The notes under the pieces were generated by a model. It was not told the DNA's origin. It saw nothing but the letters and a program-made list of their open reading frames with translations, and did not search any database. Positions 1,768-40,087 of a stretch of DNA of 64,000 nt are shown in pieces. The stretch is from Thiomonas intermedia. Its GTDB lineage: Bacteria > Pseudomonadota > Gammaproteobacteria > Burkholderiales > Burkholderiaceae_C. Each line of letters starts with the position of its first letter. Positions within the stretch are counted from its first letter, which is position 1. A program made the position numbers and the translations under genes. The DNA lies in contig NZ_CP020046.1 in assembly GCF_002028405.1 (NCBI RefSeq), positions 2,914,001-2,978,000 on the forward strand, read 5' to 3'.

Positions 1768-4992
<3,225 letters not shown>

Positions 4993-6062: not shown

Positions 6063-6069
6063 ACAGGCC

Positions 6070-6561
6070 CTAGCCGCGTGACGATTTCTTCGCGCTGGTC
6101 AGGCGGGGTTTGGCGCGTTTGACTTTGCCCGTGGCCGTCAGACGCTGATTGCCCAGCAGGGTGACGCGCTTGACCTTGGCCCGGTGTGTCGGGCTGCTCG
6201 ACGGTACGACCACCTTGACGGTGCGTGGCGACCTGCCGCGCTTGGCGCCCTGAAACTCTTCGTCCGAGGTCTGTTTGGGCGCTTTCGGGCGTGGCCGGTA
6301 GAGCACCAGCAGTTTGCCGATCGCCTGCACGGGGGCAGCCCCCAGGGTGTCGCAAATGGTGTGCTGCATGGCCAGGCGTGCCGCAGAGTCGTCGCCGAAA
6401 ACGCGCACCTTGATGAGTTCGTGGGCCTTGAGTGCCACGTCGATTTCCGCCAGATTGGCCGGATTGAGTCCTTGCTCGCCGATCAGCACGACGGGTTTGA
6501 GCCCGTGCGCTTGAGCGCGCAGGCTGCTTCGGAAAGGCGGAGTGAGTTCCAATGTAGTCAT
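6070..6561 (-). CDS. yhbY: YhbY/CRS1 family RNA-binding protein
   Basis: 163 aa. Residues ~8-100 form a CRM/YhbY domain (RSSLRAQAHGLKPVVLIGEQ and the following LNPANLAEIDVALKAHELIKVRV), known from ribosome-associated YhbY. The C-terminal ~65 residues are Lys/Arg-rich and low complexity (ending KRAKPRLTSAKKSSRG), a basic extension beyond the ~97-residue E. coli protein that probably adds RNA affinity. The start at MTTLELTPPFRS is chosen because the frame upstream of it is not conserved-looking and would run into rlmE. It is divergent from rlmE with a 72-bp gap. Confidence 0.88.
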   Translation of the reverse strand: MTTLELTPPFRSSLRAQAHGLKPVVLIGEQGLNPANLAEIDVALKAHELIKVRVFGDDSAARLAMQHTICDTLGAAPVQAIGKLLVLYRPRPKAPKQTSDEEFQGAKRGRSPRTVKVVVPSSSPTHRAKVKRVTLLGNQRLTATGKVKRAKPRLTSAKKSSRG

Positions 6562-26668: not shown

Positions 26669-26697
26669 TTGACCCTGCGGCTTTCGTGGCCTAAATT
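26669..26697 (+). promoter_or_regulatory. sigma-70-type promoter of the left fluoride riboswitch
   Basis: TTGACC (26669-26674), 17-nt spacer, TAAATT (26692-26697): five of six at -35 and four to five of six at -10. Predicted transcription start near 26704 leaves the aptamer beginning within the first ~10 nt of the RNA, as usual for this riboswitch. Confidence 0.72.
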
Positions 26698-26711
26698 GGA
26701 ATGCATCAAGC

Positions 26712-26772
26712 GGCGATGGAGTTCGCCGTTCAAATGCCCATAGGGCCTTGCCCCAGGCTGATGACTCCTACC
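26712..26772 (+). ncRNA. fluoride riboswitch (crcB motif), left copy
   Basis: The aptamer starts GGCGATGGAGTTCGCC (26712-26727) and ends GCTGATGACTCCTACC (26757-26772), the hallmark ends of the crcB/fluoride motif. GGCG..CGCC forms a stem, GGAGT can pair with ACTCC, and a GCC/GGC pair lies between. Downstream, a hairpin around 26782-26810 (TTGC, loop CTTT, GCAA, extended by GCCC/GGGC) precedes the ribosome site CAGGGAGGAACC (26816-26827), so the switch probably controls translation or early termination. Downstream genes: a small ORF, cfa and two MutS-like ATPases. Confidence 0.93.
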
Positions 26773-26830
26773 CGTCTTCGTGCTGGCCCTTGCCTTTGCA
26801 AGCGGGCAGCGTCCACAGGGAGGAACCCGG

Positions 26831-26989
26831 ATGTCATCAGACCCATCGATTCGTCGTGTCTTGCCGTGCCCGCAAGACGCAGCGCCCGCCTCGCGGGTGG
26901 CGCTCATTCACCCCCCTCTGCACCCACACGCTTGTTCGAAGCGCCTGCGCTCTGCGCAGGGGGAAGCGCTCATGCCCGCCCAACTTTGA
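26831..26989 (+). CDS. small hypothetical ORF behind the left fluoride riboswitch
   Basis: 52 codons from ATG 26831, starting MSSDPSIRRVLPCPQDAAPA. I do not recognise the product; it is Pro/Arg/Ala-rich with no membrane segment. Support for translation: GGGAGG 7 bp upstream lies in a 12-nt string identical to the ribosome site after the right riboswitch, and its TGA (26987-26989) directly abuts the cfa ribosome site AAGGAG. It may be a real peptide, or a leader coupling riboswitch-controlled translation to cfa. No family support. Confidence 0.38.
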   Translation: MSSDPSIRRVLPCPQDAAPASRVALIHPPLHPHACSKRLRSAQGEALMPAQL

Positions 26990-27001
26990 AAGGAGTTCAG
27001 A

Positions 27002-28348
27002 ATGCCCTCGATCCCTTCCTCTCTTCTTGGCCAGGTTGACGCGCGGCTCTCGCACCTTCCTCTGCCGTGCAGTGTGGTACTGCCGGGCGGCCAGCGTGTC
27101 GGACCGAGCAATGCGCAGATTGAAATGCGGCTGCGCGACAAGCGGGCGCTGTGGCACATCACCACGGGGCAGATCGGCAAGCTCGCCGAAGACTACGTGG
27201 AGGGTCTGGTGGACATCTTCGGCAGCCTGCGCGATCTCATGCGCATCGCGCCTGTGCTGCTCGACGACGATCCGCGCAAGGAGCCGTCGGCCGCCACCGC
27301 GCGCATCTGGCACCAGTTGCGCCGCACCCTGTGGGAGCACAGCCACCACTCCCGCGAAAGAGATGCCGCGCAGATCCAGAGCCATTACGACGTGTCCGAT
27401 GACTTCTATGCGCTGTGGCTCGATCCGCGCCGGGTGTATTCATGCGCGTATTTCGCCCAGCCCTCCATGACGCTGGCGCAGGCTCAAGAGGCCAAGCTCG
27501 ACCACATCTGCACCAAGCTCATGCTCAAGCCGGGCGAGCGTTTCATCGACATCGGCGCGGGCTGGGGCGGGCTGCTGCTGTGGGCTGCGGAGCACTACGG
27601 CGTGGACGCCACCGGCATCACCCTGTCGAAGAACCAATACAACCATGTGAACCGGTTGATTGTCGAGAAGGGGCTGCAGGGCCGGGTGCGCATGCTGCTG
27701 CAGGATTACCGCGACGTCGATGAGTCGCAGCCGTTCGACAAAGTGGCCTCGGTGGGCATGTGCGAGCATGTGGGCCGTCCCAATCTGCCGCTGTATTTCG
27801 ACAAGATCCGCCGTCTGCTCAAGCCGGGCGGGCTGGTGCTGAACCACGGCATTACCGCCGGCGGCGTGGACAACAGCCAGCTTGCCGGCGGCATGGGCGA
27901 CTTCATCGAAAAATACATCTTCCCCGGCGGGCAGCTCGTGCACGTCAGCGTGATGGCCGAAACCATGACCCGCGGCGGCCTTGAGCCGCTGGACATGGAA
28001 TGCCTGCGGCCGCATTACGCCAAGACCCTGTGGTACTGGGTGGACGGGCTCGAAGGTCATCTCGACGAAGCCCGCCGCGTGCTGGGCGACAAGGCCGAGA
28101 AGACGCTGCGCGCCTACCGCCTGTACCTCGCGGGTTCGGCCATGGGCTTCGAACAGGGCTGGATCTCGCTGTTCCAGATGCTGGGCAGTCGGCCCAATGG
28201 CCTGGTGGAAGAACGGGTGGACTGCAACCGGGTGCTGCGCGCGCGGCAGAGCGAGTACCCCTTCACGCGGGCGTATCAATACGCAGGCAAGGCAGACGCT
28301 GCATCGTCCGCAGCGCCTTCCGCCGCGGCGGAATCGCAGCCGCTTTGA
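27002..28348 (+). CDS. cfa: cyclopropane-fatty-acyl-phospholipid synthase
   Basis: 448 aa. It transfers a methylene from S-adenosylmethionine to unsaturated acyl chains of membrane phospholipids. Residues ~180-192 hold the SAM motif RFIDIGAGWGGLL; further hallmarks are HYDVSDDFYALWLD (written here as SHYDVSDDFY), YSCAYF, and VGMCEHVG near the bicarbonate/active site. Cyclopropane lipids are known to lower membrane permeability and to protect against acid. AAGGAG lies 6 bp before the ATG. It is the first recognised gene behind the left fluoride riboswitch. Length is slightly above the E. coli 382 aa, mainly at the N-terminus. Confidence 0.94.
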   Translation: MPSIPSSLLGQVDARLSHLPLPCSVVLPGGQRVGPSNAQIEMRLRDKRALWHITTGQIGKLAEDYVEGLVDIFGSLRDLMRIAPVLLDDDPRKEPSAATARIWHQLRRTLWEHSHHSRERDAAQIQSHYDVSDDFYALWLDPRRVYSCAYFAQPSMTLAQAQEAKLDHICTKLMLKPGERFIDIGAGWGGLLLWAAEHYGVDATGITLSKNQYNHVNRLIVEKGLQGRVRMLLQDYRDVDESQPFDKVASVGMCEHVGRPNLPLYFDKIRRLLKPGGLVLNHGITAGGVDNSQLAGGMGDFIEKYIFPGGQLVHVSVMAETMTRGGLEPLDMECLRPHYAKTLWYWVDGLEGHLDEARRVLGDKAEKTLRAYRLYLAGSAMGFEQGWISLFQMLGSRPNGLVEERVDCNRVLRARQSEYPFTRAYQYAGKADAASSAAPSAAAESQPL

Positions 28349-28365
28349 GCCCGAGGGGTGCTGGC

Positions 28366-29982
28366 ATGACGGCAGCCCCAGGGTTCCACAGCATCGTCTT
28401 TCCCAACGAGGCGCATGAGCCCGCGGGGCCGCGCCCCGATCTGCGCGACGTGTTTCACGATCTGTTTCTCGATGCGGTGTTCACGGCGGCTTACGGCGGC
28501 TTCATGCCGCGTGAGAAGCCCGCGCTGTATGTGGTCAACCGCACCGATGACGAAGCGCCGTTCCGCGCCGAGGTCCTGTCTTTGCTGCAGGCGTTGTTTG
28601 GCACGCCGCTGCACGACGCAAGCGTGGTGCAGTACCGCCAGGCGGCGCTGCGCGATCTGCAGCAGGCGTCTGTGAACAAGGGGATGCAGGCGTTTCAGCA
28701 GGGCATGCGCCGCATGCGCGAGTCGCTGCGGCGCAGCGAGAAGGCGTTCAACGCCATCGAAGGGCAGCGCTGGTTCGTGGACGCAGTGCTGATCTACGGT
28801 CAGACGCTCGACGCCCTGCAGGGCATGCTGGCCGCAGCCGAACTGCCGTCGCAGGCGCTGCAGGCCTTGCGCGAGCATGCCGCCGCGCTGCAGACCTCAG
28901 CCGAGCAGACGGCGCGAACGAGTGAAGCGCGGGCCCTGATCGATGCGATGGCCCAACTGCGCTACGCCGTGCGCATCGACGGCACGACCGTGTCGGTGCT
29001 GCAAGACCCGCACGAGCCCGATTACAGCGTCACCGTCGCTGAAGCGTTCTCCCGCTTTCGTCAAGGCGAGGTCAAGGACTACCGGGTGCAGTTCACGCCG
29101 GGGTCCGGGCTCAACCCGGTGGAAGGGCAGATCCTCGACCGCGTGGCCATGCTGCATCCCGAGGTCTTCGGGCGTCTGGCGCAGTTCTGCGAGGCCCAGC
29201 AGACCTTTGCCGATGCTCGACTGCTGCGACTCGACCGGGAGCTGGCGTGGTATCTGTGCTGGATCGACTACACCCAGCGTTTCGAGCGGGGCGGGCTGGC
29301 TGTGTGCTTTCCCGAGCTGACGCCCGAGCAGGGGACTATCGACGCTGGCGAGGCCTTCGACATGGCGCTGGCCTGGCAATGTCTGGACGGGCAGGTTGCG
29401 GTGGTGTGCAACGACGTGGCGCTGCAGGGTGACGAGCGCATGATCGTGGTCACCGGGCCCAACCACGGCGGCAAGACCACGCTGGCCCGCACCTTCGGAC
29501 AGTTGCATCACCTCGCCGCACTGGGCCTGACGGTGGCGGCGCGCAGCGCCACGCTGCTGCTGTGCGACCAGATGTTCACCCACTTCGAGCGAGTGGAGGA
29601 CATCAGCAGCCAGCGCGGCAAGCTGCAGGACGATCTGGTGCGCATGCATCACATCCTCACGGCAGCCACGCCCCGCAGCCTGGTGCTGATGAACGAGATC
29701 TTTTCGTCCACCACCCTCGATGACGCGCTGTGGCTGGCGCGGCGCATCATGGCGCAGCTCTCGGCCATCGGCGCGGCCTGCGTGTTCGTCACCTTCCTCG
29801 ACGAGCTTTCCACTTTCGATGCACATACGGTGAGCATGGTGGGCGCCGTCGATGCGCACGATCCGACCCTGCGCACCTTCAAGGTGGTGCGCCGCGCGGC
29901 CGATGGCCAGTCGTACGCCATGGCGCTGGCGCAGAAGTTCGGCGTCACGCGGCAGCAATTGCTGGAGCGAATTCCCGCATGA
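28366..29982 (+). CDS. MutS-like DNA-mismatch-repair-family ATPase, first of a pair
   Basis: 538 aa. C-terminal MutS-type ABC ATPase: Walker A GPNHGGKTT at ~364-372 (MutS has GPNMGGKST), the switch-like DISSQRGKLQDDLVRMHHIL, Walker B LVLMNEIFSSTT, and a TFLDEL histidine-loop equivalent. The N-terminal half looks like a MutS core/lever region (domain III-like, helical), but the mismatch-binding domain I with its Phe-X-Glu is absent. So it is not a canonical MutS. Lies 17 bp after cfa; its stop overlaps the next gene (ATGA). MutS-family genes are among those reported downstream of crcB-motif RNAs. Confidence 0.85.
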   Translation: MTAAPGFHSIVFPNEAHEPAGPRPDLRDVFHDLFLDAVFTAAYGGFMPREKPALYVVNRTDDEAPFRAEVLSLLQALFGTPLHDASVVQYRQAALRDLQQASVNKGMQAFQQGMRRMRESLRRSEKAFNAIEGQRWFVDAVLIYGQTLDALQGMLAAAELPSQALQALREHAAALQTSAEQTARTSEARALIDAMAQLRYAVRIDGTTVSVLQDPHEPDYSVTVAEAFSRFRQGEVKDYRVQFTPGSGLNPVEGQILDRVAMLHPEVFGRLAQFCEAQQTFADARLLRLDRELAWYLCWIDYTQRFERGGLAVCFPELTPEQGTIDAGEAFDMALAWQCLDGQVAVVCNDVALQGDERMIVVTGPNHGGKTTLARTFGQLHHLAALGLTVAARSATLLLCDQMFTHFERVEDISSQRGKLQDDLVRMHHILTAATPRSLVLMNEIFSSTTLDDALWLARRIMAQLSAIGAACVFVTFLDELSTFDAHTVSMVGAVDAHDPTLRTFKVVRRAADGQSYAMALAQKFGVTRQQLLERIPA

Positions 29983-31493
29983 AGGCCCATCTGCTGTATC
30001 CCGATCGCGATGTCGATCTCAAGGCCGATCCGCCGCCGCAATGGCCCGCCGTGGCGCAAGACCTGGAGGTCGATACCCTCCTGGCCGCCATGGCCCAGGA
30101 CGACGCCTTTCTGCTCGATGTCGCCGCGCGCACCCTGATGGCGGCTTGCGGCGCGGGCGATGGCCGCGTCATCGCTTATCGGCAGGCCGCAGTGCGTGAT
30201 GCGCTCGACCATCCCGAGCAGGTGCGGGCGCTCTACGGCCTGGTCGTCGAAGCCATCGAAAGCCGCAAGAAGCACCTGTTCGGCATGGGGCTGTTCGGGC
30301 GCTATCCCAGCTTCAATCTGCGCGGTGCGGTGGAACTGCTGCAGACCTTCGTGCAGTACCTGCGCCGTCTGCGCCAGCAGGCCGACAGCCTGGCTGGCAG
30401 TTTCCGTTCGGAAGCCTTCAGCACCCTGTTCGCATGCCTGCAGCGCGACATCGACGATGACTATTTCGACGCCGTGCAAGAGCATCTGGAAACGCTGCGC
30501 TTTCGCCACGGCGTGCTCCTCAGTGCCGGGCTGGGACCGGGCAATGCGGGAAGCGGCTATGTGCTTCACGCGGGCAACGGCAGCCGCCCCGGCTGGCTCG
30601 CACGTCTGCTGCATCAGACCCCGCCGCAATACACCTTTCGGCTGGCCGAGCGCGATGAGGCCGGCGCCCAGGCCCTGTCCGAACTGGTGGATCGCGGCAT
30701 CAACGATGTCGCCAGCGCGATGGCGCAGGCCACCGACCATGTGTTGAGTTTCTTTGAGCTGCTGCGCGCCGAACTCGGGTTTTACGTCGCCTGTCTCAAC
30801 CTGCACGGCACGCTGAGCGAACTTGGCGTGGCGCGATGCCTGCCCGAGTGTCATCCCATGGGCAGCCTGCGGCTTGAGGCGCAGGCGCTGTGCGATCCCA
30901 CGCTCGCGCTCACCTTGCAGCGCGCACCCGTCAGCAATGTGCTGGCGGCGAAGGGCAGGAACATGGTGGCTGTTACCGGCGCGAACCAGGGCGGAAAGTC
31001 CACCTTCCTGCGTTCGGTCGGGCTGGCGCAGCTCATGCTGCATGCGGGCATGTTCGTGGCTGCCGAGCGCTATGCCGGGGAACTCGCCAGCGGCCTTTTT
31101 ACCCACTACAAGCGCGAGGAAGACGCCGGTCTGCAGGGCGGCAAACTCGATGAAGAACTCGCCCGCATGCGCGGGATCGCCGAGCTCATCCGGCCGGGCG
31201 CGTTGTGGCTGTCGAATGAATCCTTCGCCTCGACCAATGAGCGCGAGGGCTCCGAACTGTTGCTGCAGGTCGCCGATGCTCTACGCCAGCGCGGCATCAA
31301 AGTGGCGCTCGTCACGCATCTGTTCGAGGCGGCCCGGCGCCTGCCGCAGCAGCACGCCGAACAGGTGCTGATGCTGCGCGCCGGGCGTCGGGACGATGGC
31401 AGTCGCAGCTTCAAACTCGAAGCCGGAGAGGCGCTGCAGACCAGCTTTGGTGCCGATCTGTACGGCGAGGTGTTCGGGACCGGCGCCGACTGA
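29979..31493 (+). CDS. MutS-like DNA-mismatch-repair-family ATPase, second of a pair
   Basis: 504 aa. Walker A GANQGGKSTF at ~334-343, then EEDAGLQGGKLDEELARMRGI and Walker B ALWLSNESFASTNERE (Glu414), followed by VALVTHLFEAARRL. The N-terminal half is helical and lacks a mismatch-recognition domain. It shares the fold with the preceding protein but is clearly diverged from it, which together with the 4-bp overlap suggests a heterodimer. Function unknown; a role in DNA or nucleotide-related stress under fluoride is speculation. Confidence 0.84.
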   Translation: MKAHLLYPDRDVDLKADPPPQWPAVAQDLEVDTLLAAMAQDDAFLLDVAARTLMAACGAGDGRVIAYRQAAVRDALDHPEQVRALYGLVVEAIESRKKHLFGMGLFGRYPSFNLRGAVELLQTFVQYLRRLRQQADSLAGSFRSEAFSTLFACLQRDIDDDYFDAVQEHLETLRFRHGVLLSAGLGPGNAGSGYVLHAGNGSRPGWLARLLHQTPPQYTFRLAERDEAGAQALSELVDRGINDVASAMAQATDHVLSFFELLRAELGFYVACLNLHGTLSELGVARCLPECHPMGSLRLEAQALCDPTLALTLQRAPVSNVLAAKGRNMVAVTGANQGGKSTFLRSVGLAQLMLHAGMFVAAERYAGELASGLFTHYKREEDAGLQGGKLDEELARMRGIAELIRPGALWLSNESFASTNEREGSELLLQVADALRQRGIKVALVTHLFEAARRLPQQHAEQVLMLRAGRRDDGSRSFKLEAGEALQTSFGADLYGEVFGTGAD

Positions 31494-31573
31494 AACGACC
31501 TGATCCAGAACGTGCCCGGTGTTGTGTGGCGCAGGGCGAGGAGTGGGTCGGCGCAGCCGCCATCAAGCCGGCA

Positions 31574-31900
31574 TCAGTTACAGCCGCACTGCGCAGACCA
31601 GGACACCACGTGTCCTGTCGGCACCATCTCCTGAATGCGTGGCAGCACGGACTCGACGACTTCCGGTTCGTCGAAAAACTCCAGCACCAGCGGCAGGTGG
31701 ACGTTGAGCCGAAGCAGATCGTCGGCATGCACTTCGCCCTTGCTGCCAAAACCGGCCACGCCGCGGAACACCGTGACGCCGTGCACCTTGTGCTGTTCGT
31801 GCAAGAGTTTGAAGAGGCTGCGCATGAGGTCGTGGTGATCGATGTCCTTGTCGCCCTCCTTGATGTAGATGCGAACCATGGTGACGGATTTGGTGCTCAT
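31574..31900 (-). CDS. DUF190 family protein, CrcB-associated
   Basis: 108 aa, DUF190/PII-like fold family: MVRIYIKEGDKDIDHHDLMR, LHEQHKVHGVTVFRGVAGFG, and LPLVLEFFDEPEVVE are typical. DUF190 genes are commonly adjacent to crcB, and a regulatory or accessory role is assumed. The start overlaps the crcB stop by 4 bp, implying coupled expression. The C-terminus is short (WSAQCGCN). The gene ends 80 bp from the convergent MutS-like gene. Confidence 0.85.
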   Translation of the reverse strand: MSTKSVTMVRIYIKEGDKDIDHHDLMRSLFKLLHEQHKVHGVTVFRGVAGFGSKGEVHADDLLRLNVHLPLVLEFFDEPEVVESVLPRIQEMVPTGHVVSWSAQCGCN

Positions 31901-32289
31901 GTCGAGACTCCCATATTGCGTGACAGATAGGCGCCGAAGATGGCGGCCGCGATGGACAGCACCACGGAGGCGCCGATGTACAGCCCGGCTTTCACCATCT
32001 CGCCGTTCTCGATCAGATTGAGTGATTCCAGCGAAAAGGTCGAGAAGGTGGTGTAGGCCCCCAGGCCGCCCGTGAGAATGCCGGTACGCAGTTCAGGGCT
32101 GAGGTTGATGCGCTCCAGGGTTTCAAAGAACAGGAAGCCCATCAGGAACGAACCGAGAATGTTGATCGACAGCGTGGCAAAGGGGAAGGAGCGCCCCAGC
32201 ACGCTTTGAACGACGATGCTCTGGCCGTAGCGCGCGAACGCGCCGATGATGGCGAAGATGGCGATGAAAACGTAGGTCATTCGGTACAT
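31897..32289 (-). CDS. crcB: fluoride ion channel CrcB/Fluc
   Basis: 130 aa, four membrane segments. Fluc channels are dual-topology dimers that expel F- passively. Signature residues: the N-terminal GAFARYG, the pore Asn in SINILGSFLMGF, the central Na+-site segment TGGLGAYTTFSTFSLE with the phenylalanines of the phenylalanine box. It lies 102 bp after the last gene of the hydrogenase-like cluster on the same strand and so is probably part of the right riboswitch operon. Its presence confirms the fluoride reading of the two riboswitches. Confidence 0.95.
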   Translation of the reverse strand: MYRMTYVFIAIFAIIGAFARYGQSIVVQSVLGRSFPFATLSINILGSFLMGFLFFETLERINLSPELRTGILTGGLGAYTTFSTFSLESLNLIENGEMVKAGLYIGASVVLSIAAAIFGAYLSRNMGVST

Positions 32290-32391
32290 CCAAAAAGGTT
32301 GGAAGTGAAGAAGCTGCCGCGCGGAGGCGGCCGGTCAGGTCGTTATGGCGATGAAGTCGTGTTGCGGTCTCCCTGTAGTCTTCCCGTGCGC

Positions 32392-34407
32392 TCAGCCGGT
32401 TGGCCATACCAGCACCAGGCCGAAGATCACGACCAGCAGAATGCCGATATAGGCCAGGTAGGCGTTCATCAGACCGTTCTGCAGGAAGCGCAGCCTGCGC
32501 GCCAGCCATTGCACCGCGTTGACCGAGGGCGTGAACAGCAGCGGGCCGAACAACGGCGCCTGCGAATAGTCGAACTGCAATTCTTTCAGGAAATACGGCT
32601 TGCCTTCGAACTGCCGCGCCACGGCGTTGCGCGGACGGTAAACGAAGTTGTAGAACACCCGCAGCGCGTTGGAAAACGACAGCGCCGTCGTCGCTCCGGC
32701 ATGGGCGGCGTAGTCTTCGCCGCCGCACCACAGCGGCGCGCGGCGCACAGGAAAGCGCCTGCGACCCCACACCAGCGCCAGCGGAATGAGCGCCAGCAGC
32801 GGTACGACGATCACCAGCATCGTGGGCGAGATGAAGGCGAACCCGGCCGACAGCGGCACCAGCAAGCCGTCATGCGTCATCTGCCCCGGTGTTTGCGTCG
32901 CGGTCCAGGCCGCGGCTCCCATCTCGGGCAGCCAGAACACCAGGCTCACCGCGAACGCGGGCACGGCCAGCCCGGTGATGAGTATCGACCAGCGCTGCAG
33001 GGGCGTGAGCGTGGCCTGGTGTTTGCGGTGATGCGCAGTGTGGGCTTCGTTCTGCCCCAGCAGTCCCACCCCGAACACCTTGACCATGGTCGCCAGCGCG
33101 ATGGCCGCCGTCAGTGCCATGCCGGCACCGGCCAGCGCCAGGGCGATGCGCGAGCCATCGGTCTTGAGCGTGAAATCGTGGAACAGGCTCTGGAACAGAT
33201 ACCACTCGCTGACGAAGCCGGCCGTGGGCGGCATGGCCGCCAGGCTCATGGCGCCGAATACCGCGCCCAGGCCGAGGGTGAGCGGCGCATGACGCAGGAT
33301 GGCGCTCTGCCGCAGATGATGATTGCCCTGCAGCGCGGCCGCCGCATCGGCGCTGAGGAACAGTGTGCCTTTGGCCAGGCTGTGGCCCATGAGGTGCAGC
33401 ATGCCCACCGTCCAGGCCAGGGCCGAGAGCATGTCTTCGCCCCCGGCGCGAAAGACGAGGGCGGCTCCCAGCGCCGTGACGGCCACGCCGGCATTTTCGG
33501 CGGATGAAAACGCCAGCAGCCGCCGCCAGTCGCTCTGCTGGAAGGCGTAGAGGATGGCAAGAATGGCGGTGAACGTGCCCACGATGAGCACCACCACACC
33601 GAAGTCGGCGAGCCAGGGCGGGTTGCCCATCCATTGCAGCAGGGCGCGGCCGAGGGCGAAGTAGGCTGCGTTCATCACCACGCCCGACATCAGCGCGCCG
33701 CTGGCGCCACCGCCGCTGCCGTAGGCGCCTGGATACCACTCGTAGAACGGCAGCAGCCCGAGCTTGGCGCCAAAGCCCACCAGCCACAGCAGCCCGAGGA
33801 AAAAGGCGGAGGCCACCCCCCATTGTGTCCACTGAAGCGCGTAAGTGCCGAAGGCCAGACTCTGGCCGAGCATGAGCACCGCCAGCAGCAGCGCCACGCC
33901 GCCCACTTCAAGCAGGGCGAGCATGAACAGGTTGTCATGGCCGGCCTGCACGCTGCGGTGGTCGGCCAGCAGCATGAGCGCGCCGCCGAATCCCATCACC
34001 TCCCAGGCGATGAGAAAGCTCGCGCCGTCCTGCAGGCCGTAAACCCCCAGCGCGCCCAGCAGCGACAGAGCCGCGCCCGCGGCCCAGCCGCGAGTGTGTG
34101 CCGTGCCGCCGAGCAGGCTGGCGAAGAAGGCGGGCAGCAGCGCGGGCAGCATGAGCCACAGCGCGGCGGCATCGGGATGGAACACCACCGCGGCATCGCC
34201 GAGCACCAGCACCGTCTGGCCGACGCTGCCGGAAGGCAGGCCCCACAACGCGCCCACGGCTGCCAGAACGCAGCCGAGTGCCAGCAGCCCGCGTGGCAGT
34301 GCCGAGCCGAGGAACAGATCGGCCAGCAGCGCCAGCACCCAGCAAGCAGCGGCCAGACCGAAGGCGGTGAGGGCAAGGAAGCTGGCGATGCCATCAGGCA
34401 GATTCAT
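32392..34407 (-). CDS. HyfB-like / NuoL-family antiporter subunit of an Ehr-type complex
   Basis: 671 aa, the length of E. coli HyfB/HycC, with about 14-16 membrane segments. Proton-translocation family features: FLIAWEVMGFGGALML, a Lys-bearing helix near WLVGFGAKLGLLPFYEWYPG, and MLHLMGHSLAKGTLFLSADA with its Lys. The C-terminal CGGED and AFEGKPYF-type region (RRAPLWCGGEDY) is also seen in HyfB. It is the last gene of the hydrogenase-like set and overlaps the previous gene by 14 bp. Predicted role: ion or proton translocation. Confidence 0.88.
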   Translation of the reverse strand: MNLPDGIASFLALTAFGLAAACWVLALLADLFLGSALPRGLLALGCVLAAVGALWGLPSGSVGQTVLVLGDAAVVFHPDAAALWLMLPALLPAFFASLLGGTAHTRGWAAGAALSLLGALGVYGLQDGASFLIAWEVMGFGGALMLLADHRSVQAGHDNLFMLALLEVGGVALLLAVLMLGQSLAFGTYALQWTQWGVASAFFLGLLWLVGFGAKLGLLPFYEWYPGAYGSGGGASGALMSGVVMNAAYFALGRALLQWMGNPPWLADFGVVVLIVGTFTAILAILYAFQQSDWRRLLAFSSAENAGVAVTALGAALVFRAGGEDMLSALAWTVGMLHLMGHSLAKGTLFLSADAAAALQGNHHLRQSAILRHAPLTLGLGAVFGAMSLAAMPPTAGFVSEWYLFQSLFHDFTLKTDGSRIALALAGAGMALTAAIALATMVKVFGVGLLGQNEAHTAHHRKHQATLTPLQRWSILITGLAVPAFAVSLVFWLPEMGAAAWTATQTPGQMTHDGLLVPLSAGFAFISPTMLVIVVPLLALIPLALVWGRRRFPVRRAPLWCGGEDYAAHAGATTALSFSNALRVFYNFVYRPRNAVARQFEGKPYFLKELQFDYSQAPLFGPLLFTPSVNAVQWLARRLRFLQNGLMNAYLAYIGILLVVIFGLVLVWPTG

Positions 34408-35221
34408 ACTGGCCTCCGTGTACCCGTTGGGAACGCCGCCGCAGCAGCAGAAGCAGCGCCTCGATCAGTGCGGCGGGATTGGGCGGGCAACCCGGCAGCC
34501 ACACATCCACGGGGAGGATGCCCTGCAGCCCCTGATGGCAGGCATAGCCGCCGCCGCTGACGCCGCCACTCGTGGCGCAAGTGCCCACCGCCATGACCCA
34601 GCGCGGTTGCGGCATGGCTTCGTAGGTGCGCAGCAGCGGCTCGCGCATCGCCGCGGTCACCGGGCCGGTGACCAGCAGCAGGTCGGCAAAACGCGGCGAG
34701 GGCGTGAAGAAAAGGCCCAGACGGTGCAGGTTGTAAAACGGGTTGAGCAGGGCCTGCAGTTCGCTTTCGCAGCCGTTGCACGAACCGGCGTCCACATGGC
34801 GGATGTGCAGGCTCTTGCCGAAGGCCTTGAGTTCCTGCGCCAGCTCGGCCTCGTTGGCGGTTTGCGGTGTTGCGGTCGGAACGATGGCGTTGCCACGGTT
34901 CACCAGATCGGCCTTGTCGCGCACGCCGAAGGCCCAGTCGTGACTGACGGTGAACGCACCTTCCGGGCAGACTTCGGTGCAGAGCTGGCAGCCCACGCAG
35001 CGGGCGTAGTCGACCCGCACCGCCCCTGCCGCGTTGGCGGAGATGGCCGAGGCGGGACAGGCCGCCACGCAGTCGGTACAGCCGGTCTGCGCGCTCGAAC
35101 AGCGCGCGGCGTCGAATCGCGGCAGGCCGAGCACGCCTTCCTGCCCATCGGGGCCGGGGTGCTCGGGCCAGGGTGTGGTGGCGCGGCCTTTTTGGAGGCC
35201 AAACCAGGTCCAGACAGGCAT
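34394..35221 (-). CDS. fused ferredoxin / NuoB-like (HyfH-HyfI-type) subunit
   Basis: 275 aa. Residues ~30-90 contain two [4Fe-4S] sites: C-x6-C-x2-C-x3-CP in ARCSSAQTGCTDCVAACP and CVGCQLCTEVCPEGA. Residues ~130-265 are a NuoB/HyfI-like small subunit with the N2-type ligands: CNGCE, GTCATSGG and LPGCPP. In E. coli these two functions are separate proteins (HyfH, HyfI). The start MPVWTWFGLQ is chosen at 35221; the longer open frame to 36826 is a shadow of the neighbouring gene. The iron-sulfur chain therefore looks intact even though the large subunit lacks the NiFe site. Confidence 0.88.
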   Translation of the reverse strand: MPVWTWFGLQKGRATTPWPEHPGPDGQEGVLGLPRFDAARCSSAQTGCTDCVAACPASAISANAAGAVRVDYARCVGCQLCTEVCPEGAFTVSHDWAFGVRDKADLVNRGNAIVPTATPQTANEAELAQELKAFGKSLHIRHVDAGSCNGCESELQALLNPFYNLHRLGLFFTPSPRFADLLLVTGPVTAAMREPLLRTYEAMPQPRWVMAVGTCATSGGVSGGGYACHQGLQGILPVDVWLPGCPPNPAALIEALLLLLRRRSQRVHGGQYESA

Positions 35222-35235
35222 GGTCGTTCTCCTTC

Positions 35236-36834
35236 TCAGCGATCGGCGCCCGCGATGGACAGGCCGAAGCTGGCTTCGTTGATGGCGTAATCCATCATGT
35301 TGCTGTCCTCCACCGTGAACGGAAACACCCGCCAGTTCGAGAACGACGGCTCTTTGATCTTCACGCGCAGCAGCCGCGTGCGGTCTTCGCTGAGATGCAC
35401 GGCGTAGAGCAGACCGCCGCGGGCGGCTTCCACCCAGCCCAGGCCTTCGCCCTGCGGGTCGGGGTCTTCCATCACGTCCAGGCGCAGTACGTCGCCCGGT
35501 TTGGTGCGGCCGATGGTCTGGCGGATGATGGCCAGCGATTCGCGGATTTCTTCCATGCGCACGAGCGAACGCGCGTGGGCGTCGCCGCCCTGCTGCACCG
35601 GAATCGAGAAGCGCACCTTCTCGTAATGGGCATAGGGATGGTCGCGCCGCAGGTCGCGGTCGAGATCGCTGGCGCGCTCGATCGGGCCGGTGGCGCCCTG
35701 GTCGAATGCCACCTGGCGGGGCAGGATGCCGGTGGCCATCAGCCGGTCGAGATGGCTGCGGGTGGACTCCAGGCGCACCAGGTAGCGGTCGATCTCGTCG
35801 TTGATGGCGTCGAGCGCCTTGTCCAGCCCGGAGATGTCGAGATCGCGGCGCAGGCCGCCCGGCGTGACGAGGCCGCGCAGAAAGCGGCTGCCGGTCAGCC
35901 GGGCGTTGATCTGCTTGATTCGCTCTTCGAGCAGATGCCCCTCGGCCTCGCCGACCTTGAGCGTCGTGGTCTTGGACAGATGACCGAGGTAGTGCAGATG
36001 GTTGTACAGACGCTCCAGCTCGGCCAGGATGACGCGCAGATAGCGTGCGCGGGCGGGCGCGCGCCAACCCATCGCCCCCTCCACCGCCTGCGCATAGGCC
36101 AGCGCGTGCGCCACGGAGTCGATGCCGCTCACGCGTTCGGCCAGTACCGCGCCCGCCGCCAGCGCGACACCCTGGAAGCGCGCCTCCATGGCCCGGTGCT
36201 TGTAGAACAGCCGCGGGTGATAGTGCAGGATGCCCTCGCCGATATAGAAGAACAGGAACTGTGCCGACTCGACAATGTCGGCCCGCACCGGCCCGAACGG
36301 CAGGCGCTGGATGTCCGGCCCGAGCACCTGGGGCACGATGGGCGGCTGCGGCGAGAAGTCGAGCGCGGCGGCGTTCACGTCGAAGTGCGCGGCCAGCGGC
36401 GCGGGTTCGCGCGGCATGCCTTCGTGCAGCACCAGCGGGTTGGGCTCGGGGTGACCGTCGAAGCGCAGGCCGTACAGATCCATCATTTCGCGCTCGTACC
36501 AGCCCAGCAGCGGCAGCTTGTTCGCCAGCGAGGGCAGAGTGTGGCTGTCGGGCCGCACGCGCCAGAGCTTGTAGGGACGATTGGCGCCCTGGCTGAGCAA
36601 GCCGCCGGGCCGCCCCAAGGTCCGCTCGCTCCCTTGGGGGGCGGGCGACGCCTGCGGCGGCGTGGGGGCGCTGCTGATGTAGATCACGTCCATGCCGCCT
36701 TCGGCACAGCCGCAGGCATAGGCCATCTGCATGCGGCCGTGGGCGCTGGGCGAGTCGCCCAGTTCGGTCAGCAGGCCGTCGGCTGCGGGCAGCAGGTCGG
36801 GCGGATCCAGTCGCGCAGTATCGCAATGGCGCAT
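35236..36834 (-). CDS. HyfG-like (NuoC-NuoD fusion) large subunit lacking NiFe ligands
   Basis: 532 aa. N-terminal NuoC/30-kDa-like domain (PYKLWRVRPDSHTLPSLANK, GWYEREMMDLYGLRFDGHPE) fused to a NuoD/hydrogenase-large-subunit domain (FFYIGEGILHYHPRLFYKHR). Where group 4 hydrogenases have RVCGICG, this has RVSGIDS (~234-240), and the C-terminal DPCxSC motif is replaced by EASFGLS near the end. The only cysteines are Cys4, Cys41 and Cys43. It therefore cannot bind a NiFe centre and belongs with Ehr (energy-converting hydrogenase-related) complexes. Residues ~58-78 (PTPPQASPAPQGSERTLGRP) come from a repeat inserted in frame. GGAGGAG precedes the ATG. Confidence 0.9.
   Translation of the reverse strand: MRHCDTARLDPPDLLPAADGLLTELGDSPSAHGRMQMAYACGCAEGGMDVIYISSAPTPPQASPAPQGSERTLGRPGGLLSQGANRPYKLWRVRPDSHTLPSLANKLPLLGWYEREMMDLYGLRFDGHPEPNPLVLHEGMPREPAPLAAHFDVNAAALDFSPQPPIVPQVLGPDIQRLPFGPVRADIVESAQFLFFYIGEGILHYHPRLFYKHRAMEARFQGVALAAGAVLAERVSGIDSVAHALAYAQAVEGAMGWRAPARARYLRVILAELERLYNHLHYLGHLSKTTTLKVGEAEGHLLEERIKQINARLTGSRFLRGLVTPGGLRRDLDISGLDKALDAINDEIDRYLVRLESTRSHLDRLMATGILPRQVAFDQGATGPIERASDLDRDLRRDHPYAHYEKVRFSIPVQQGGDAHARSLVRMEEIRESLAIIRQTIGRTKPGDVLRLDVMEDPDPQGEGLGWVEAARGGLLYAVHLSEDRTRLLRVKIKEPSFSNWRVFPFTVEDSNMMDYAINEASFGLSIAGADR
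36601..36670. repeat. REP-like palindromic repeat inserted within a coding region
   Basis: The DNA CCGCCCCAAGG...CCTTGGGG followed by GCGGGCGACGCCTGCGGC and GGCGTGGGGGCG resembles the short GC-rich repeats common between genes in Burkholderiales. Here it lies inside the HyfG-like gene, adds about 21 residues rich in Pro, Gly and Ser, and keeps the frame. The identification as a dispersed repeat is from its look, not from a search. Confidence 0.5.
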
Positions 36835-36835
36835 C

Positions 36836-38293
36836 TCACACTCCTCCCAGTTGCGTGGCGATGGCCGCCAGATGGGCCCAGATCGGCGGCAGCCACCACA
36901 GGCCCAGCAGCAGGATGGCGGCCAGCGCCACGGCCATGGGCGCCACATGCACGAACCTGAGTTTCAGATGCGGCGCATGCTCCGGCCGGGGCCCGAAGAA
37001 CATGGCGCGGAAGTGGTTGAGAAAGCCGATGAAGATGACGATGAGCAGCACCGCCATCCACCACACCGCCCAGGGGTTGGCGCTCTGCATGCCGCCGCGC
37101 AGGATGGTGAGCTCCGACAGAAACAGCCCGAACGGCGGCGCCCCTGTGATGGCCACCGCGCCGGCCAGCCAGAGCGCGCCGCTACGCGGGAAAAAGCGCA
37201 GCACGCGGCGAATCCGGGCGATCTCCTTGCTCTCATAGGCATGCATCATGTTGCCGGCGCCGAAGAACACCAGCGATTTGGTCAGCGAGTGATTGAGCAT
37301 GTGATAGAGCGCGCCGATCACGCCCAGCGGTCCGCCGAAGCCGAAGCCCAGCGCGATCACGCCCATGTGCTCCACGCTCGAATACGCGGCCAGGCGCTTG
37401 ATGATGGTCTGTCGGCTGATGAACAGCGCCGCCACCAGCAGGCTGAAGGCCCCCAGCACCACCAGCGCGGTGCGCGCCGTAGCCTCGATCGTGGTGTGTT
37501 CGATGATCTGCAGATAGCGCACGATGCCCAGCATGGCGCAGTTGAGCAAGGCGCCCGACAGCATGGCCGACACCGGGGCCGGGCCTTCGCTGTGCGCGTC
37601 GGGCAGCCAGGTGTGCATCGGCGCCAGGCCCACCTTGGTGCCGAAACCCACCAGCACCAGCAGGAAGGCCAGCAGCAACAACAGCGGCTCGGCCTTGGGC
37701 GCGACGAGCGCGAGATTGGCCCAGGTCATGTCGTACACCGGGCCGAGAATGAAAGTGCCGGCCCAGTAAAACAGCACCGTGCCCAGCAGCGCCAGGCCGA
37801 GGCCGGCGGAGACGATGACGATGTATTTCCACGCCGCCTCGATGCTTTCGGGCGCACGCTGAAAGCCCACCAGGAAGGCGCTGACGATGGTGGTGAGATC
37901 GATGGCGATCCAGTAAAGCCCGGGGTTGTTCTGCGCCGGGGCGAAGAACATGGTCAGTGCAAACGCCGCGAACAGCGCGTAGAAGCGGTGCAGCCGCGTC
38001 TCTTCGCCGTGCATCCAGCGCATATAGCCGATGGCGTAGAGGCTGGCCAGCAGGTAGACGATGGCCAGGCAGAACATCACCCATACGCCGAAGTCGTCGA
38101 GCAGCAAATAGTGGTTCAACGCGGTGATCGGGTGGCCCGGCGTGGCGATGAGCAGCACGACGACCAGCACGAAGTCGATCACCGCCGCGGCGAGATTGAG
38201 CCCCTCGGCCACACGGCTGCGGCGCGAGATCCAGCTGCCCACCATGGCCAGCGCGGTGATGATCCAGATGGCATACAGGACATTCCAGATCAT
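36836..38293 (-). CDS. HyfF-like / NuoN-family antiporter subunit of an Ehr-type complex
   Basis: 485 aa, about 14 membrane segments, closest in layout to HyfF. Conserved helix features: GFGTKVGLAPMHTWLPDAHSE (Lys and the following PDAH motif) and MLNHSLTKSLVFFGAGNMMH with a membrane Lys. Predicted proton-translocating subunit. It is packed 4 bp after the HyfE-like gene and 1 bp before the HyfG-like gene. With HyfB it gives two antiporter-like subunits; no HyfD counterpart is present. Confidence 0.9.
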   Translation of the reverse strand: MIWNVLYAIWIITALAMVGSWISRRSRVAEGLNLAAAVIDFVLVVVLLIATPGHPITALNHYLLLDDFGVWVMFCLAIVYLLASLYAIGYMRWMHGEETRLHRFYALFAAFALTMFFAPAQNNPGLYWIAIDLTTIVSAFLVGFQRAPESIEAAWKYIVIVSAGLGLALLGTVLFYWAGTFILGPVYDMTWANLALVAPKAEPLLLLLAFLLVLVGFGTKVGLAPMHTWLPDAHSEGPAPVSAMLSGALLNCAMLGIVRYLQIIEHTTIEATARTALVVLGAFSLLVAALFISRQTIIKRLAAYSSVEHMGVIALGFGFGGPLGVIGALYHMLNHSLTKSLVFFGAGNMMHAYESKEIARIRRVLRFFPRSGALWLAGAVAITGAPPFGLFLSELTILRGGMQSANPWAVWWMAVLLIVIFIGFLNHFRAMFFGPRPEHAPHLKLRFVHVAPMAVALAAILLLGLWWLPPIWAHLAAIATQLGGV

Positions 38294-38297
38294 GGCT

Positions 38298-38978
38298 TCA
38301 CCCCACCAGCCTTGTGAGGTCGCGGCTGCTGGTCGAGCCCACTTCCTTGTGCAGGTAGCGAATCAGCATGCCGAACGTCGAGACGATGATCAGCAGGTCG
38401 AACAGGATCACCATTTCCAGCAGCAGGGGCATGCCCGGCACCAGAATCTGCGAGCCGAGGAAGATGCCGTTCTCGATCACGAGCAGGCCGAGGATGGAAC
38501 TCACCGCCTCGGCCCGTAGCACCAGCATGAGAAAACCGATGAGCTTGAGCGAGAACATGGCCGTGAGCGCGAGCACCGCGATGCTGTCCATCAGATTCAT
38601 GCGCACGCCCAACTTCTCGGCCACGGCGTAGGAAAACAGCACCAGAAAGCCGCCGAGCACCACGCTCGACGCCGGTTGCAGCAACGGGGTGAACTCGCGG
38701 TTCTGCCCCAGGCCGTTGACGATGCGCACGAGCAGATAGGGCAGCAGCGTGCCGCGGAACAGCGCCGTGAGCGCCGCGATGAAGACCAGCTCGGGGTAAT
38801 GTCCACTGAGGCCGATGGCCGCCGACAGCGCCGCAATCACCCAGGACTCCGCGGCGAAGGCCAGGATGTGATTCTTGATCCAGTGCGAGCCCAGCATGAC
38901 GAACGCCAGGATGAGGGCGATGATGGTCAGCAGGCTGAACAGCGAGGCCTGCACGCCGCCGAGGTGAAAGATCAGCAT
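38298..38978 (-). CDS. HyfE-like membrane subunit of an Ehr-type complex
   Basis: 226 aa, about six to seven membrane segments, similar in length to HyfE (216 aa). The second half (LGLLVIENGIFLGSQILVPG) carries the NuoK-like membrane Glu. It likely forms part of the membrane arm next to the HyfC-like subunit. 13 bp after the HyfC-like gene, 4 bp before the HyfF-like gene. Confidence 0.87.
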   Translation of the reverse strand: MLIFHLGGVQASLFSLLTIIALILAFVMLGSHWIKNHILAFAAESWVIAALSAAIGLSGHYPELVFIAALTALFRGTLLPYLLVRIVNGLGQNREFTPLLQPASSVVLGGFLVLFSYAVAEKLGVRMNLMDSIAVLALTAMFSLKLIGFLMLVLRAEAVSSILGLLVIENGIFLGSQILVPGMPLLLEMVILFDLLIIVSTFGMLIRYLHKEVGSTSSRDLTRLVG

Positions 38979-38991
38979 GGCACCCGGCTCC

Positions 38992-39936
38992 TCACACTTG
39001 CCGCGCCACGATGGCGAGAATCGCCATCAGGAAGGACAGCGCCAGCGGCTCCTGATAGCGGTAGAAGCGCAGGCGCGACTGCGCGGTGTCCACGAACACC
39101 ATGATCAGACCCACAACGGCCCACTTGGCCATCAGCGCCACGGTGGCGCCCAGAATGCCCAGCGCCGTGCCCTCGATCGACAACCCCCAGGGCAGGGTGA
39201 GCACGTTGAGAAAGATGGTGTAGAGAATGGCCTGCTTCATCCAGGAGGCCCACTTCAGCAGCGCCAGCAGCGGGCCGGAGTATTCGAGGATGCGGGCCTC
39301 GCCGATCATGTAGATCTCGTAGTGGATGCTCGAATGGATCGGCAGGCGCTCGGTCTCCACCGTCAGCAGAATGAAGAAGGCCGCCACCAGGAACAGATGG
39401 GCCGGACTCCAGAACACCGCCGGCTGCGCCACCAGCAGATGGTTGACGACGAAGGGCAGCATGGCCTGCGCCAGCAGGGTGATGCCGACGAACACCATGA
39501 TCAGCGTGGGCTCGGCGAGGATGGCGAGCATGGCCTCCCTGCTGGAGCCCAGGCCGCCGTAGGGGTGGCCGCTGTCCAGCCCGGCGAGCAGGATGGCGAA
39601 GCCGCCCAGGGTGAGGATGAGACCACCGCCAAGAATGTCGCCCATGTCGGACAAGGGCAGCGGATAGTTGGTCAGCACCGGGATGAGGAAGGGCACCGTG
39701 AGCATGCACGCGAAGGCCACCACCGGCGCGGCCCAGAACACCCATGACGCAGTCTGGGGCACCACGATTTCCTTGCGGAACAGCTTGAACAGATCGCGGT
39801 AGGGCTGAAAGAGGCTGGGGCCATAGCCTCGCTGCACCTTCTCTTCCATCGCGGCGATGAAGCCGTGCAGCAACGGAGAGAGCAGCGCGATGGCCAGGAC
39901 CTGACACACTTGCTGCAAGATGACGTCACCGCGCAT
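38992..39936 (-). CDS. HyfC-like / NuoH-family subunit of an Ehr-type complex, first gene behind the right fluoride riboswitch
   Basis: 314 aa, about eight membrane segments. NuoH/HyfC features: GFIAAMEEKVQRGYGPSLFQ followed by PYRDLFKLFRKE, and the Glu-bearing loop VETERLPIHSSIHYEIYMIG. This subunit couples the soluble arm to the membrane arm. Start MRGDVILQQ at 39936 is chosen because GGGAGG lies 4-5 bp upstream, inside the riboswitch leader; the frame runs open through the aptamer up to 40077, which is not protein-like. The aptamer ends 47 nt before the ATG. Confidence 0.92.
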   Translation of the reverse strand: MRGDVILQQVCQVLAIALLSPLLHGFIAAMEEKVQRGYGPSLFQPYRDLFKLFRKEIVVPQTASWVFWAAPVVAFACMLTVPFLIPVLTNYPLPLSDMGDILGGGLILTLGGFAILLAGLDSGHPYGGLGSSREAMLAILAEPTLIMVFVGITLLAQAMLPFVVNHLLVAQPAVFWSPAHLFLVAAFFILLTVETERLPIHSSIHYEIYMIGEARILEYSGPLLALLKWASWMKQAILYTIFLNVLTLPWGLSIEGTALGILGATVALMAKWAVVGLIMVFVDTAQSRLRFYRYQEPLALSFLMAILAIVARQV

Positions 39937-39983
39937 GGTTCCTCCCTGTCGTGATTCGCAAGTCGGCACAGCGGCTTGCGGCA

Positions 39984-40041
39984 GGTAGGAGTCATCAGCT
40001 TCGGGCAGCGGACCCGCGCGGTTTGGGCGAACTCCATCGCC
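39984..40041 (-). ncRNA. fluoride riboswitch (crcB motif), right copy
   Basis: Read on the minus strand the aptamer starts GGCGATGGAGTTCGCC (40041-40026) and ends GCTGATGACTCCTACC (39999-39984), with CAAACCGC just after the first block. Both end blocks are identical to those of the left copy while the middle differs. Downstream, CGCAAG and CTTGCG form a hairpin before the ribosome site CAGGGAGGAACC (39948-39937), which abuts the HyfC-like ATG. GGAG in that site could pair with CTCC of the aptamer, a possible translational off state. Confidence 0.94.
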
Positions 40042-40057
40042 TTTGTTCTTGGGGACC

Positions 40058-40087
40058 AGTCTAGGAGTTCGGGCCAAGGCGGGTCAA
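40058..40087 (-). promoter_or_regulatory. sigma-70-type promoter of the right fluoride riboswitch
   Basis: On the minus strand TTGACC (40087-40082), an 18-nt spacer and TAGACT (40063-40058). The -35 hexamer is identical to that of the left riboswitch promoter. The aptamer begins about 17 nt after the -10. Confidence 0.62.

Follow-up and report, generated by a model that had tools for sequence, protein, structure and literature searches.

Two facing fluoride riboswitches enclose a putative fluoride-defence island with a NiFe-less, Ehr-type complex in Thiomonas intermedia

Introduction

What might a bacterium gain from setting a hydrogenase-like membrane complex, a fluoride exporter, a cyclopropane-fatty-acid synthase-like enzyme and a pair of MutS-like ATPases between two fluoride riboswitches that face each other? 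The question is posed by a 64,000-nucleotide stretch of the Thiomonas intermedia genome (contig NZ_CP020046.1, positions 2,914,001 to 2,978,000 of the forward strand), hereafter the window, to which all positions refer unless another locus is named. An earlier reading of the letters alone – the sequence-only reading – had described the stretch as two inward-facing riboswitches around a convergent block of genes. Both switches exist, the complex between them lacks the ligands of a NiFe site, and its close relatives lie behind fluoride riboswitches in other bacteria. The explanation that we hold to be moderately probable is that the block is a fluoride-defence island of two riboswitch-controlled units, in which fluoride would induce an Ehr-type ion pump offsetting the proton leak caused by hydrogen fluoride (HF) and the fluoride ion (F-). 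Loci and genomes in our comparisons carry L and G numbers, respectively.

Results

Two riboswitches face inward

A covariance search of the window with the Rfam fluoride riboswitch model RF01734 (cmscan, cut-off 34 bits) gave exactly two matches: the left-unit aptamer at 26703..26777 on the plus strand (46.4 bits, E 1.1e-9) and the right-unit aptamer at 39979..40050 on the minus strand (51.5 bits, E 2.4e-11). No other RNA family in Rfam exceeded its own cut-off in the window (cmscan), and a search of the whole genome (3,343,428 bases, two contigs) returned the same two fluoride riboswitches and no third. The pair points inward across 13.3 kb. The identical aptamer end blocks that the sequence-only reading had placed at 26712 (+) and 40041 (-) are confirmed, GGCGATGGAGTTCGCC having no other copy in the window; likewise a 10-mer from the Shine-Dalgarno region, GGGAGGAACC, occurs in the window just twice, at 26818 (+) and 39946 (-), once in each unit. 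The promoter positions proposed for the two switches also hold. On the left, TTGACC-17-TAAATT (26669..26697, plus strand, with TAAATT at 26692) was found by a scan with 9/12 matches (1 found against 0.1 expected) and is kept in L003, L004 and L007; on the right, TTGACC-18-TAGACT (40058..40087, minus strand, with TTGACC at 40087 and TAGACT at 40063) was located by position and is conserved in its three printed Thiomonas relatives (L003, L005, L006). By itself TTGACC is weak evidence of a promoter, because the window holds 37 copies on its two strands.

Folding leads us to predict that the riboswitches act by release of the Shine-Dalgarno, that is, on translation. In the right leader the Shine-Dalgarno is paired with the 3' strand of the aptamer in the minimum-energy fold, and the expected number of Shine-Dalgarno/aptamer pairs is 6.5-8.9 in 10 of 12 right leaders, the window's included (11 from Thiomonas and one from another genus; no standard Shine-Dalgarno was located in the remaining two, which thus have no pairing value). 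Of ten left leaders, the window's gives 4.9 expected pairs and the other five that could be scored give 5.2-8.0. Transcription attenuation was entertained as a general mechanism and set aside, since a run of at least five T between the aptamer 3' end and HycD is found in just 10 of 63 HycD leaders of relatives; those ten could still use termination.

The composition claimed for the left unit, cfa plus two MutS-like ATPases, stands, with one amendment: the switch-proximal Shine-Dalgarno (GGGAGGAACC at 26818) serves not cfa directly but a 52-codon leader frame at 26831..26989 on the plus strand, read from the sequence and without a Pfam match. The TGA of this frame overlaps the cfa Shine-Dalgarno, TGAAAGGAG. 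Among 11 Thiomonas leaders the frame stops at the same TGA in eight (the others being L043, L044 and L038); it measures 45-63 codons, and in L004 it is preceded by a poor Shine-Dalgarno. A conserved peptide was considered and rejected for this varying length, for the other end in three leaders and for the poor Shine-Dalgarno of L004. Because length, end and Shine-Dalgarno are not constant, we propose translational coupling only, and the overlap suggests the frame as a candidate for coupling to cfa.

The complex has lost the NiFe site

The right unit opens with six genes, all on the minus strand. First stands a HycD/NuoH-like membrane subunit (38992..39936; Pfam NADHdh, 112 bits), followed by a HyfE-like membrane subunit (38298..38978; NCBIfam NF008556 at 52.7 bits, below the cut-off of 136, and no Pfam match), a HyfF-like antiporter subunit (36836..38293; Pfam Proton_antipo_M, 171 bits), a HycE/NuoD-like large subunit (35236..36834; Pfam Complex1_49kDa, 149 bits), a HycG-like Fe-S subunit with a fused N-terminal ferredoxin domain (34394..35221; Pfam Oxidored_q6 and Fer4 families) and a HyfB-like antiporter subunit (32392..34407; Pfam Proton_antipo_M, 83.3 bits), in which E144, K234 and E407 are kept and K265 is replaced by N (NuoM numbering, here and below).

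The sequence-only reading had called this a six-gene hydrogenase-like complex. The kinship of its subunits to Hyc and Hyf proteins survives; its function as a hydrogenase or formate hydrogenlyase does not. In an alignment to E. coli HycE the ligands C241, C244, C531 and C534 are all replaced in the window and in 80/80 relatives (81/81 sequences). The CGIC motif of hydrogenase has become SGID or similar, and NEASFGL..., with which the window's protein closes, takes the place of the second cysteine pair of hydrogenase. The protein stops near the start of the E. coli HycE tail, which we take to be a cleaved maturation tail. Neither formate dehydrogenase nor maturation genes are among the open reading frames assigned between the switches, the only part of the genome examined for them.

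These observations bear directly on the reading of riboswitch-linked genes of this kind that is given, in the relevant passage, by a review (PMC11139923): that a formate hydrogenlyase or hydrogenase shifts metabolism to fermentation under fluoride. The subunits do resemble Hyc/Hyf proteins, and among solved structures the large subunit matches formate hydrogenlyase (7z0s) best, ahead of complex I and membrane-bound hydrogenase. But the loss of all four NiFe cysteines from 81/81 sequences, in a protein that ends near the point at which the HycE tail begins, rules out such a function, and we regard a shift to fermentation through this complex as scarcely conceivable.

The features that remain are those of the Ehr family: a HycE/NuoD-like subunit devoid of Ni/Fe ligands, antiporter-like membrane subunits (Proton_antipo_M in two of them) and a proximal [4Fe-4S] site of N2 type in the small subunit, the last also Ehr-defining. 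HycG still has its four N2-type cysteines in 82/83 untruncated sequences, among them the window's (four truncated sequences were excluded from the count). Along the ion path, HyfB retains E144 in 73/73, K234 in 73/73 and E407 in 71/73 sequences, and HyfF retains K234 in 74/76 (with two gaps) and E407 in 76/76. Since a HycE/NuoD-like subunit without Ni/Fe ligands is how Ehr complexes are defined in the relevant part of the literature (PMC6349859), the sequences mark the complex as a branch of the NiFe-less Ehr family.

Whether such a complex would need electrons at all is a fair question. It could be an ion antiporter driven by the proton-motive force (Na+/H+ or K+/H+, Mrp-like), its Fe-S arm structural or regulatory, and correct cytoplasmic pH with no electron transfer. 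Most of the ion-path residues tested are conserved, as this would lead one to expect, and Na+/H+ antiporters are, according to the review, the next commonest fluoride riboswitch targets after exporters (PMC11139923). Moreover, one relative of another genus has lost three of the four N2 cysteines (L045, HycG at 5679-6320), so redox-driven pumping cannot hold for every member. On the other side stand the N2 site kept in 82/83 sequences and the ferredoxin domain fused to the window's HycG, which together argue for electron transfer in most members. The antiporter is a possibility that we entertain tentatively. As to the L045 protein itself, no ferredoxin domain is visible by eye, and the complex, possibly redox-dead, adjoins a weak fluoride riboswitch (27.7 bits with our own model and 32.8 with Rfam's, just below cut-off).

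The branch is tied to fluoride

Relatives were gathered by a protein-only search of named genomes, of which we took the best 80 of 257, and a riboswitch model built from 41 fluoride riboswitches was then run over the 80 loci. A locus was readable if it had HycD and at least 150 bases before it, which left 67; of the 13 unreadable loci, ten had no HycD on the contig and three had HycD at the contig end. A fluoride riboswitch stands ahead of the complex in 67/67 readable loci. It lies within 400 bases of HycD in 63, and in the other four (L056, L058, L064, L092) at 0.5-1.3 kb with a CrcB-like or DUF190-like gene between. Six of the 67 (L046, L047, L048, L051, L052, L055) share DNA with the loci used to build the model; without them the count is 61/61. 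When six of the loci were checked with Rfam's own model, the riboswitch ahead of HycD was confirmed in every one.

A class-wide sample of 369 genomes draws the boundary of the association. Large-subunit matches at E up to 1e-60 fall into two groups, one of 515-819 bits (11 matches in nine genomes) and one of at most 346 bits (45 matches), a gap due in part to the query alignment, which was built from fluoride-linked sequences. In the high-scoring group outside the window's own genome a significant riboswitch precedes HycD in 8/9 loci. In the next-nearest Ehr group there is none in the 31 loci fetched for the 45 low-scoring matches, nor did Rfam find one in the nine rechecked; among these 31 the contig ends inside the cluster in L144 and L147, and only HycE was recognised in L162. 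The difference (8/9 against 0/31) has a Fisher p of 1.2e-7. The sister loci have also lost the NiFe set, one of the four cysteines being kept in 2/31. This test and that on the relatives overlap, because three of the nine high-scoring class loci recur among the relatives: L134, L136 and L139 have the DNA of L063, L087 and L120.

A quick tree places the riboswitch-linked rows in two clades of 39 and 10 rows (SH-aLRT – Shimodaira-Hasegawa-like approximate likelihood-ratio test – support 100 each), joined at 94 and apart from the 31 sister rows; it carries a warning that long branches meet, and its riboswitch label was set by group, so that L140 and the second copy of L099 count as carriers with no riboswitch confirmed directly before them. 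In the loci examined, the tie between this branch and fluoride holds in both Pseudomonadota and Acidobacteriota.

Seen from the side of the riboswitch, the 369 class genomes hold 27 fluoride riboswitches over the cut-off, 25 of them outside the window's genome. Nine of the 25 precede NiFe-less complexes (one, G539:C18:20774, just past the fetched stretch) and one precedes a MutS pair. In the 14 loci fetched for the other 15, tblastn found no Hyc- or Nuo-like gene (L184 and L185 offer less than 5 kb downstream), and CrcB homologues are present in nine. A NiFe formate hydrogenlyase behind a fluoride riboswitch was found neither in the 369 class genomes, nor in a family draw, of which 23 loci were rechecked with E. 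coli Hyc and Nuo queries, nor among the 80 best of 257 relatives. In print such genes are labelled 'formate hydrogenlyase', a name that suits no riboswitch-linked case examined here.

Some Acidithiobacillus carry a second, divergent complex (about 36% identity) after the first. Of the seven loci with such a copy, L101, L106, L107 and L123 have a riboswitch 0.5-0.9 kb before it; for the copy in L063 the riboswitch lies on the same contig but outside the locus (G539:C18:20774), and the copies in L096 and L099 are not directly preceded by one.

Both switches persist across the genus

The survey of related genomes that the sequence-only reading had called for shows the two-switch arrangement to be kept across Thiomonas. 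Among 13 genomes compared, all have a fluoride riboswitch (12 above the cut-off). The switch on the HIT/cfa side is present in 11 (in G303 at 29.8 bits, below the cut-off) and that on the fumC side in 11; the gaps are G299, which has the fumC side only, G303, whose contig ends after crcB, and G304, which is differently laid out. Four genomes have both switches on one contig, inward in every case, at spacings of 13.3, 15.4, 3.5 and 3.4 kb. An enolase gene lies between cfa and MutSa in five genomes (L003, L004, L007, L032, L035) and is absent from the window and from G302 (L037). In G306 and G307 the complex, the MutS pair and enolase are lost, leaving scraps of HycD and HyfB and, in G306, of enolase; because the two switches, Cfa, CrcB and DUF190 remain, these form the lasting core in these genomes.

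A sceptic might hold that the two inward switches are a by-product of gene order: unrelated fluoride operons side by side with no joint function. In other lineages the complex and the MutS pair do have switches of their own or stand at different loci, and no shared regulator was seen beyond the switch. Yet G306 and G307 keep both switches though the island between them has shrunk to 3.4-3.5 kb, and in other lineages clusters of the MutS pair, enolase, Cfa and the complex recur; we think mere adjacency unlikely.

Several further arrangements were seen. The Thiomonas genome G244 has a third fluoride riboswitch, ahead of an MFS transporter gene (L008, 1267-2691), and MFS genes similar to this one lie near fluoride genes in L039, L142 and L181. 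In two Thiomonas genomes the right unit has an Nramp-type metal transporter at its convergent end (L007, 7952-9328, by Pfam; L032, 201-1523). In another genus (G032; L010, 13356-14997) what stands behind a riboswitch is a decayed HycD fragment, then two crcB genes and DUF190, so that here too the complex is lost and the switch kept.

The remaining genes of the island

Downstream of the complex the right unit ends, still on the minus strand, with a CrcB/Fluc fluoride exporter (31897..32289; Pfam CRCB, 94.5 bits; TIGR00494, 82.5 bits, above the cut-off of 80.45) and a DUF190 protein (31574..31900; Pfam DUF190, 87 bits). The left unit, on the plus strand, begins with cfa (27002..28348), a methyltransferase of the cyclopropane-fatty-acid synthase family (Pfam CMAS, 312 bits against a cut-off of 27) that scores below the NCBIfam cut-offs of named Cfa enzymes. 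Two MutS-like ATPases follow, MutSa (28366..29982) and MutSb (29979..31493), with Pfam MutS_V at 73.6 and 39.3 bits, respectively, as the sole MutS domain found. The units converge near 31.5 kb, as had been claimed, the ends of MutSb and DUF190 being at 31493 and 31574, respectively; a search of 31300-31800 gave no intrinsic terminator. On this layout every gene between the switches would be fluoride-responsive, and the block may act as one system. The island is flanked by Ppx/GppA, histidine phosphatase and HIT genes on the left and fumarase C on the right. Elsewhere in the genome are its single enolase gene, far from the island, a second full-length Cfa-type gene with one weak partial match besides, and one MutS_V gene of ordinary kind.

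DNA mismatch repair by the MutS pair is unsupported. Pfam finds no MutS_I mismatch-recognition domain in either protein, and against a cut-off of 480 the NCBIfam MutS model gives 86 bits for MutSa and 36 for MutSb; with an ATPase domain but none for mismatch recognition, the pair gives no ground for speaking of 'DNA repair'. The top NCBIfam score of MutSb is KamC, at 46 bits far under the KamC cut-off of 300. Its AlphaFold model (mean predicted local distance difference test score, pLDDT, 77.9) has MutS proteins as top Foldseek matches; the model of MutSa was poor (mean pLDDT 61.9) and was not used. A single-protein query found no relatives of MutSb in viral contigs. That the pair reactivates fluoride-blocked enzymes is our guess.

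The 80 relatives' loci, many cut by contig ends, contain CrcB in 39, DUF190 in 39, MutSa in 14, MutSb in 16, enolase in 19 and Cfa in six. At least two fluoride riboswitches occur in 23/80, several with the MutS pair, enolase, CrcB, CLC or Cfa nearby, and so the gathering of targets into one block, which had been thought special to the window, is not. In four Acidithiobacillus/Igneacidithiobacillus loci (L095, L100, L124, L125) the unit's CrcB-DUF190 end is followed by Cfa. In L054 Cfa has a riboswitch of its own 233 bases upstream, and MutSa and MutSb come after it. By record title the carriers include Acidithiobacillus, Acidobacteria, Rhodopila, Paraburkholderia, Caballeronia, Trinickia and many metagenome-assembled genomes (MAGs). 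One MAG locus (L069; 2-745, minus strand, and 2598-4445, plus strand) has five fluoride riboswitches, one before glutamine synthetase and one before dihydroxy-acid dehydratase (Pfam), besides the complex. Dynamin-like GTPases lie behind fluoride riboswitches in L076 (1916-3556, Pfam) and L121 (by eye).

Discussion

How might such an island work? As fluoride rises, each aptamer would fold and free a Shine-Dalgarno otherwise paired with the aptamer 3' strand, and both units would be translated. The right unit would then supply the CrcB exporter and the six-subunit NiFe-less Ehr-type complex. HF is expected to diffuse in, the more so at low pH, and to release H+ and F- inside; F- would leave through CrcB, for a net gain of one proton inward per cycle, worst in acid habitats. 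A fluoride-induced ion pump fits this need because HF entry with F- export carries a proton in: the complex would move ions, with protons going out, and offset the leak. It is here that we infer most, assigning the complex a pumping activity with a direction, a substrate and an electron donor and acceptor. From the left unit, cyclopropane lipids made by Cfa might tighten the membrane, and the two MutS-like ATPases may act on fluoride-blocked enzymes. The review cited above describes HF entry as a weak acid and a link between fluoride and acidification (PMC11139923).

Several observations weigh against the ion-pump explanation, and we set them out together. The translational part of the model rests on folding, because a swap test over the 63 HycD leaders gave no locus-specific covariation of aptamer and Shine-Dalgarno (own -9.83, swapped -9.80 kcal/mol); shuffled leaders were weaker in the same test (-8.74 kcal/mol, p 0.005 for own), as expected of any Shine-Dalgarno against an aptamer strand. 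In the complex, almost every HyfB and HyfF has N where NuoM has K265, position E144 of HyfF is D in 29/76 sequences, the window's included, and the large subunit has no NiFe ligands and, by eye, no obvious complex-I quinone residues; to these must be added the three N2 cysteines lost from L045. The complex is dispensable in G306 and G307, where it is lost with both switches kept. CrcB was not found by tblastn in 41 of the 80 loci, many of them cut by contig ends (at least one has a CLC-family gene behind a riboswitch), and the ninth high-scoring class locus, L140, offers a weak match of 23.1 bits that Rfam does not confirm. Finally, that many carriers live in acid habitats is presumed, in part from the names in their record titles.

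A bolder proposal is that the Ehr branch itself extrudes fluoride, or fluoride and protons, powered by electrons or another ion gradient. If true, it would be an energised fluoride pump built on a complex I chassis, in acid-living bacteria for which a passive CrcB channel is not enough; we think this improbable.

The ion-pump explanation matters first for the Ehr family, most of whose complexes have no agreed function. Charge translocation by Ehr complexes, coupled to a cytoplasmic redox reaction, is called suspected in one account, in which the archaeal Mbx exemplifies a complex whose reaction is known (PMC6349859), and a 2026 paper treats a bacterial Ehr as nonfunctional for want of a NiFe site (PMC13194489). 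A whole branch tied to one chemical signal, fluoride, has a directly testable role. The view that 'formate hydrogenlyase' genes linked to these riboswitches turn metabolism towards fermentation is put in question, and in its place stands a concrete model of how acid-living cells may cope with HF as a proton carrier.

It remains to set the island beside known systems. It shares the aptamer and the target classes of other fluoride riboswitch (crcB motif, RF01734) regulons: mutS and formate hydrogenlyase genes behind these switches, which the sequence-only reading had rightly taken for known targets, have been in print since 2010 (PMC2864571), and exporters and enolase are named in the review (PMC11139923). 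It differs in having two facing switches around a convergent block with Cfa, and in that its 'formate hydrogenlyase' is NiFe-less. The FRM operon of Enterobacter cloacae, ppaC-uspA-eno-gpmA-crcB-orf5249, is likewise a riboswitch-led, multi-gene fluoride resistance system with crcB and enolase; it is, however, one operon under one riboswitch, and the portion of the paper describing it mentions no Ehr complex, Cfa or MutS pair (PMC5533749). The MutS pair has the MutS_V ATPase core of MutS/MutS2 and of the reactivase ATPase KamC, but falls far below the cut-offs of those models and has no mismatch-recognition domain that we could find. With the E. coli formate hydrogenlyase (Hyc) the complex has subunit kinship, 7z0s being the closest solved large subunit; unlike it, the complex has no NiFe ligands, and no maturation gene was assigned in the unit. 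From other Ehr complexes it is set apart by its separate branch in the tree, by the order HycD-HyfE-HyfF-HycE-HycG-HyfB and by its place under fluoride riboswitches, where none of the 31 sister Ehr loci examined lies. As far as our searches of an openly licensed library show, four things are new: that the complex is NiFe-less, that one branch of Ehr is linked to fluoride, that a two-switch island is found across the genus, and that Cfa is a recurrent partner.

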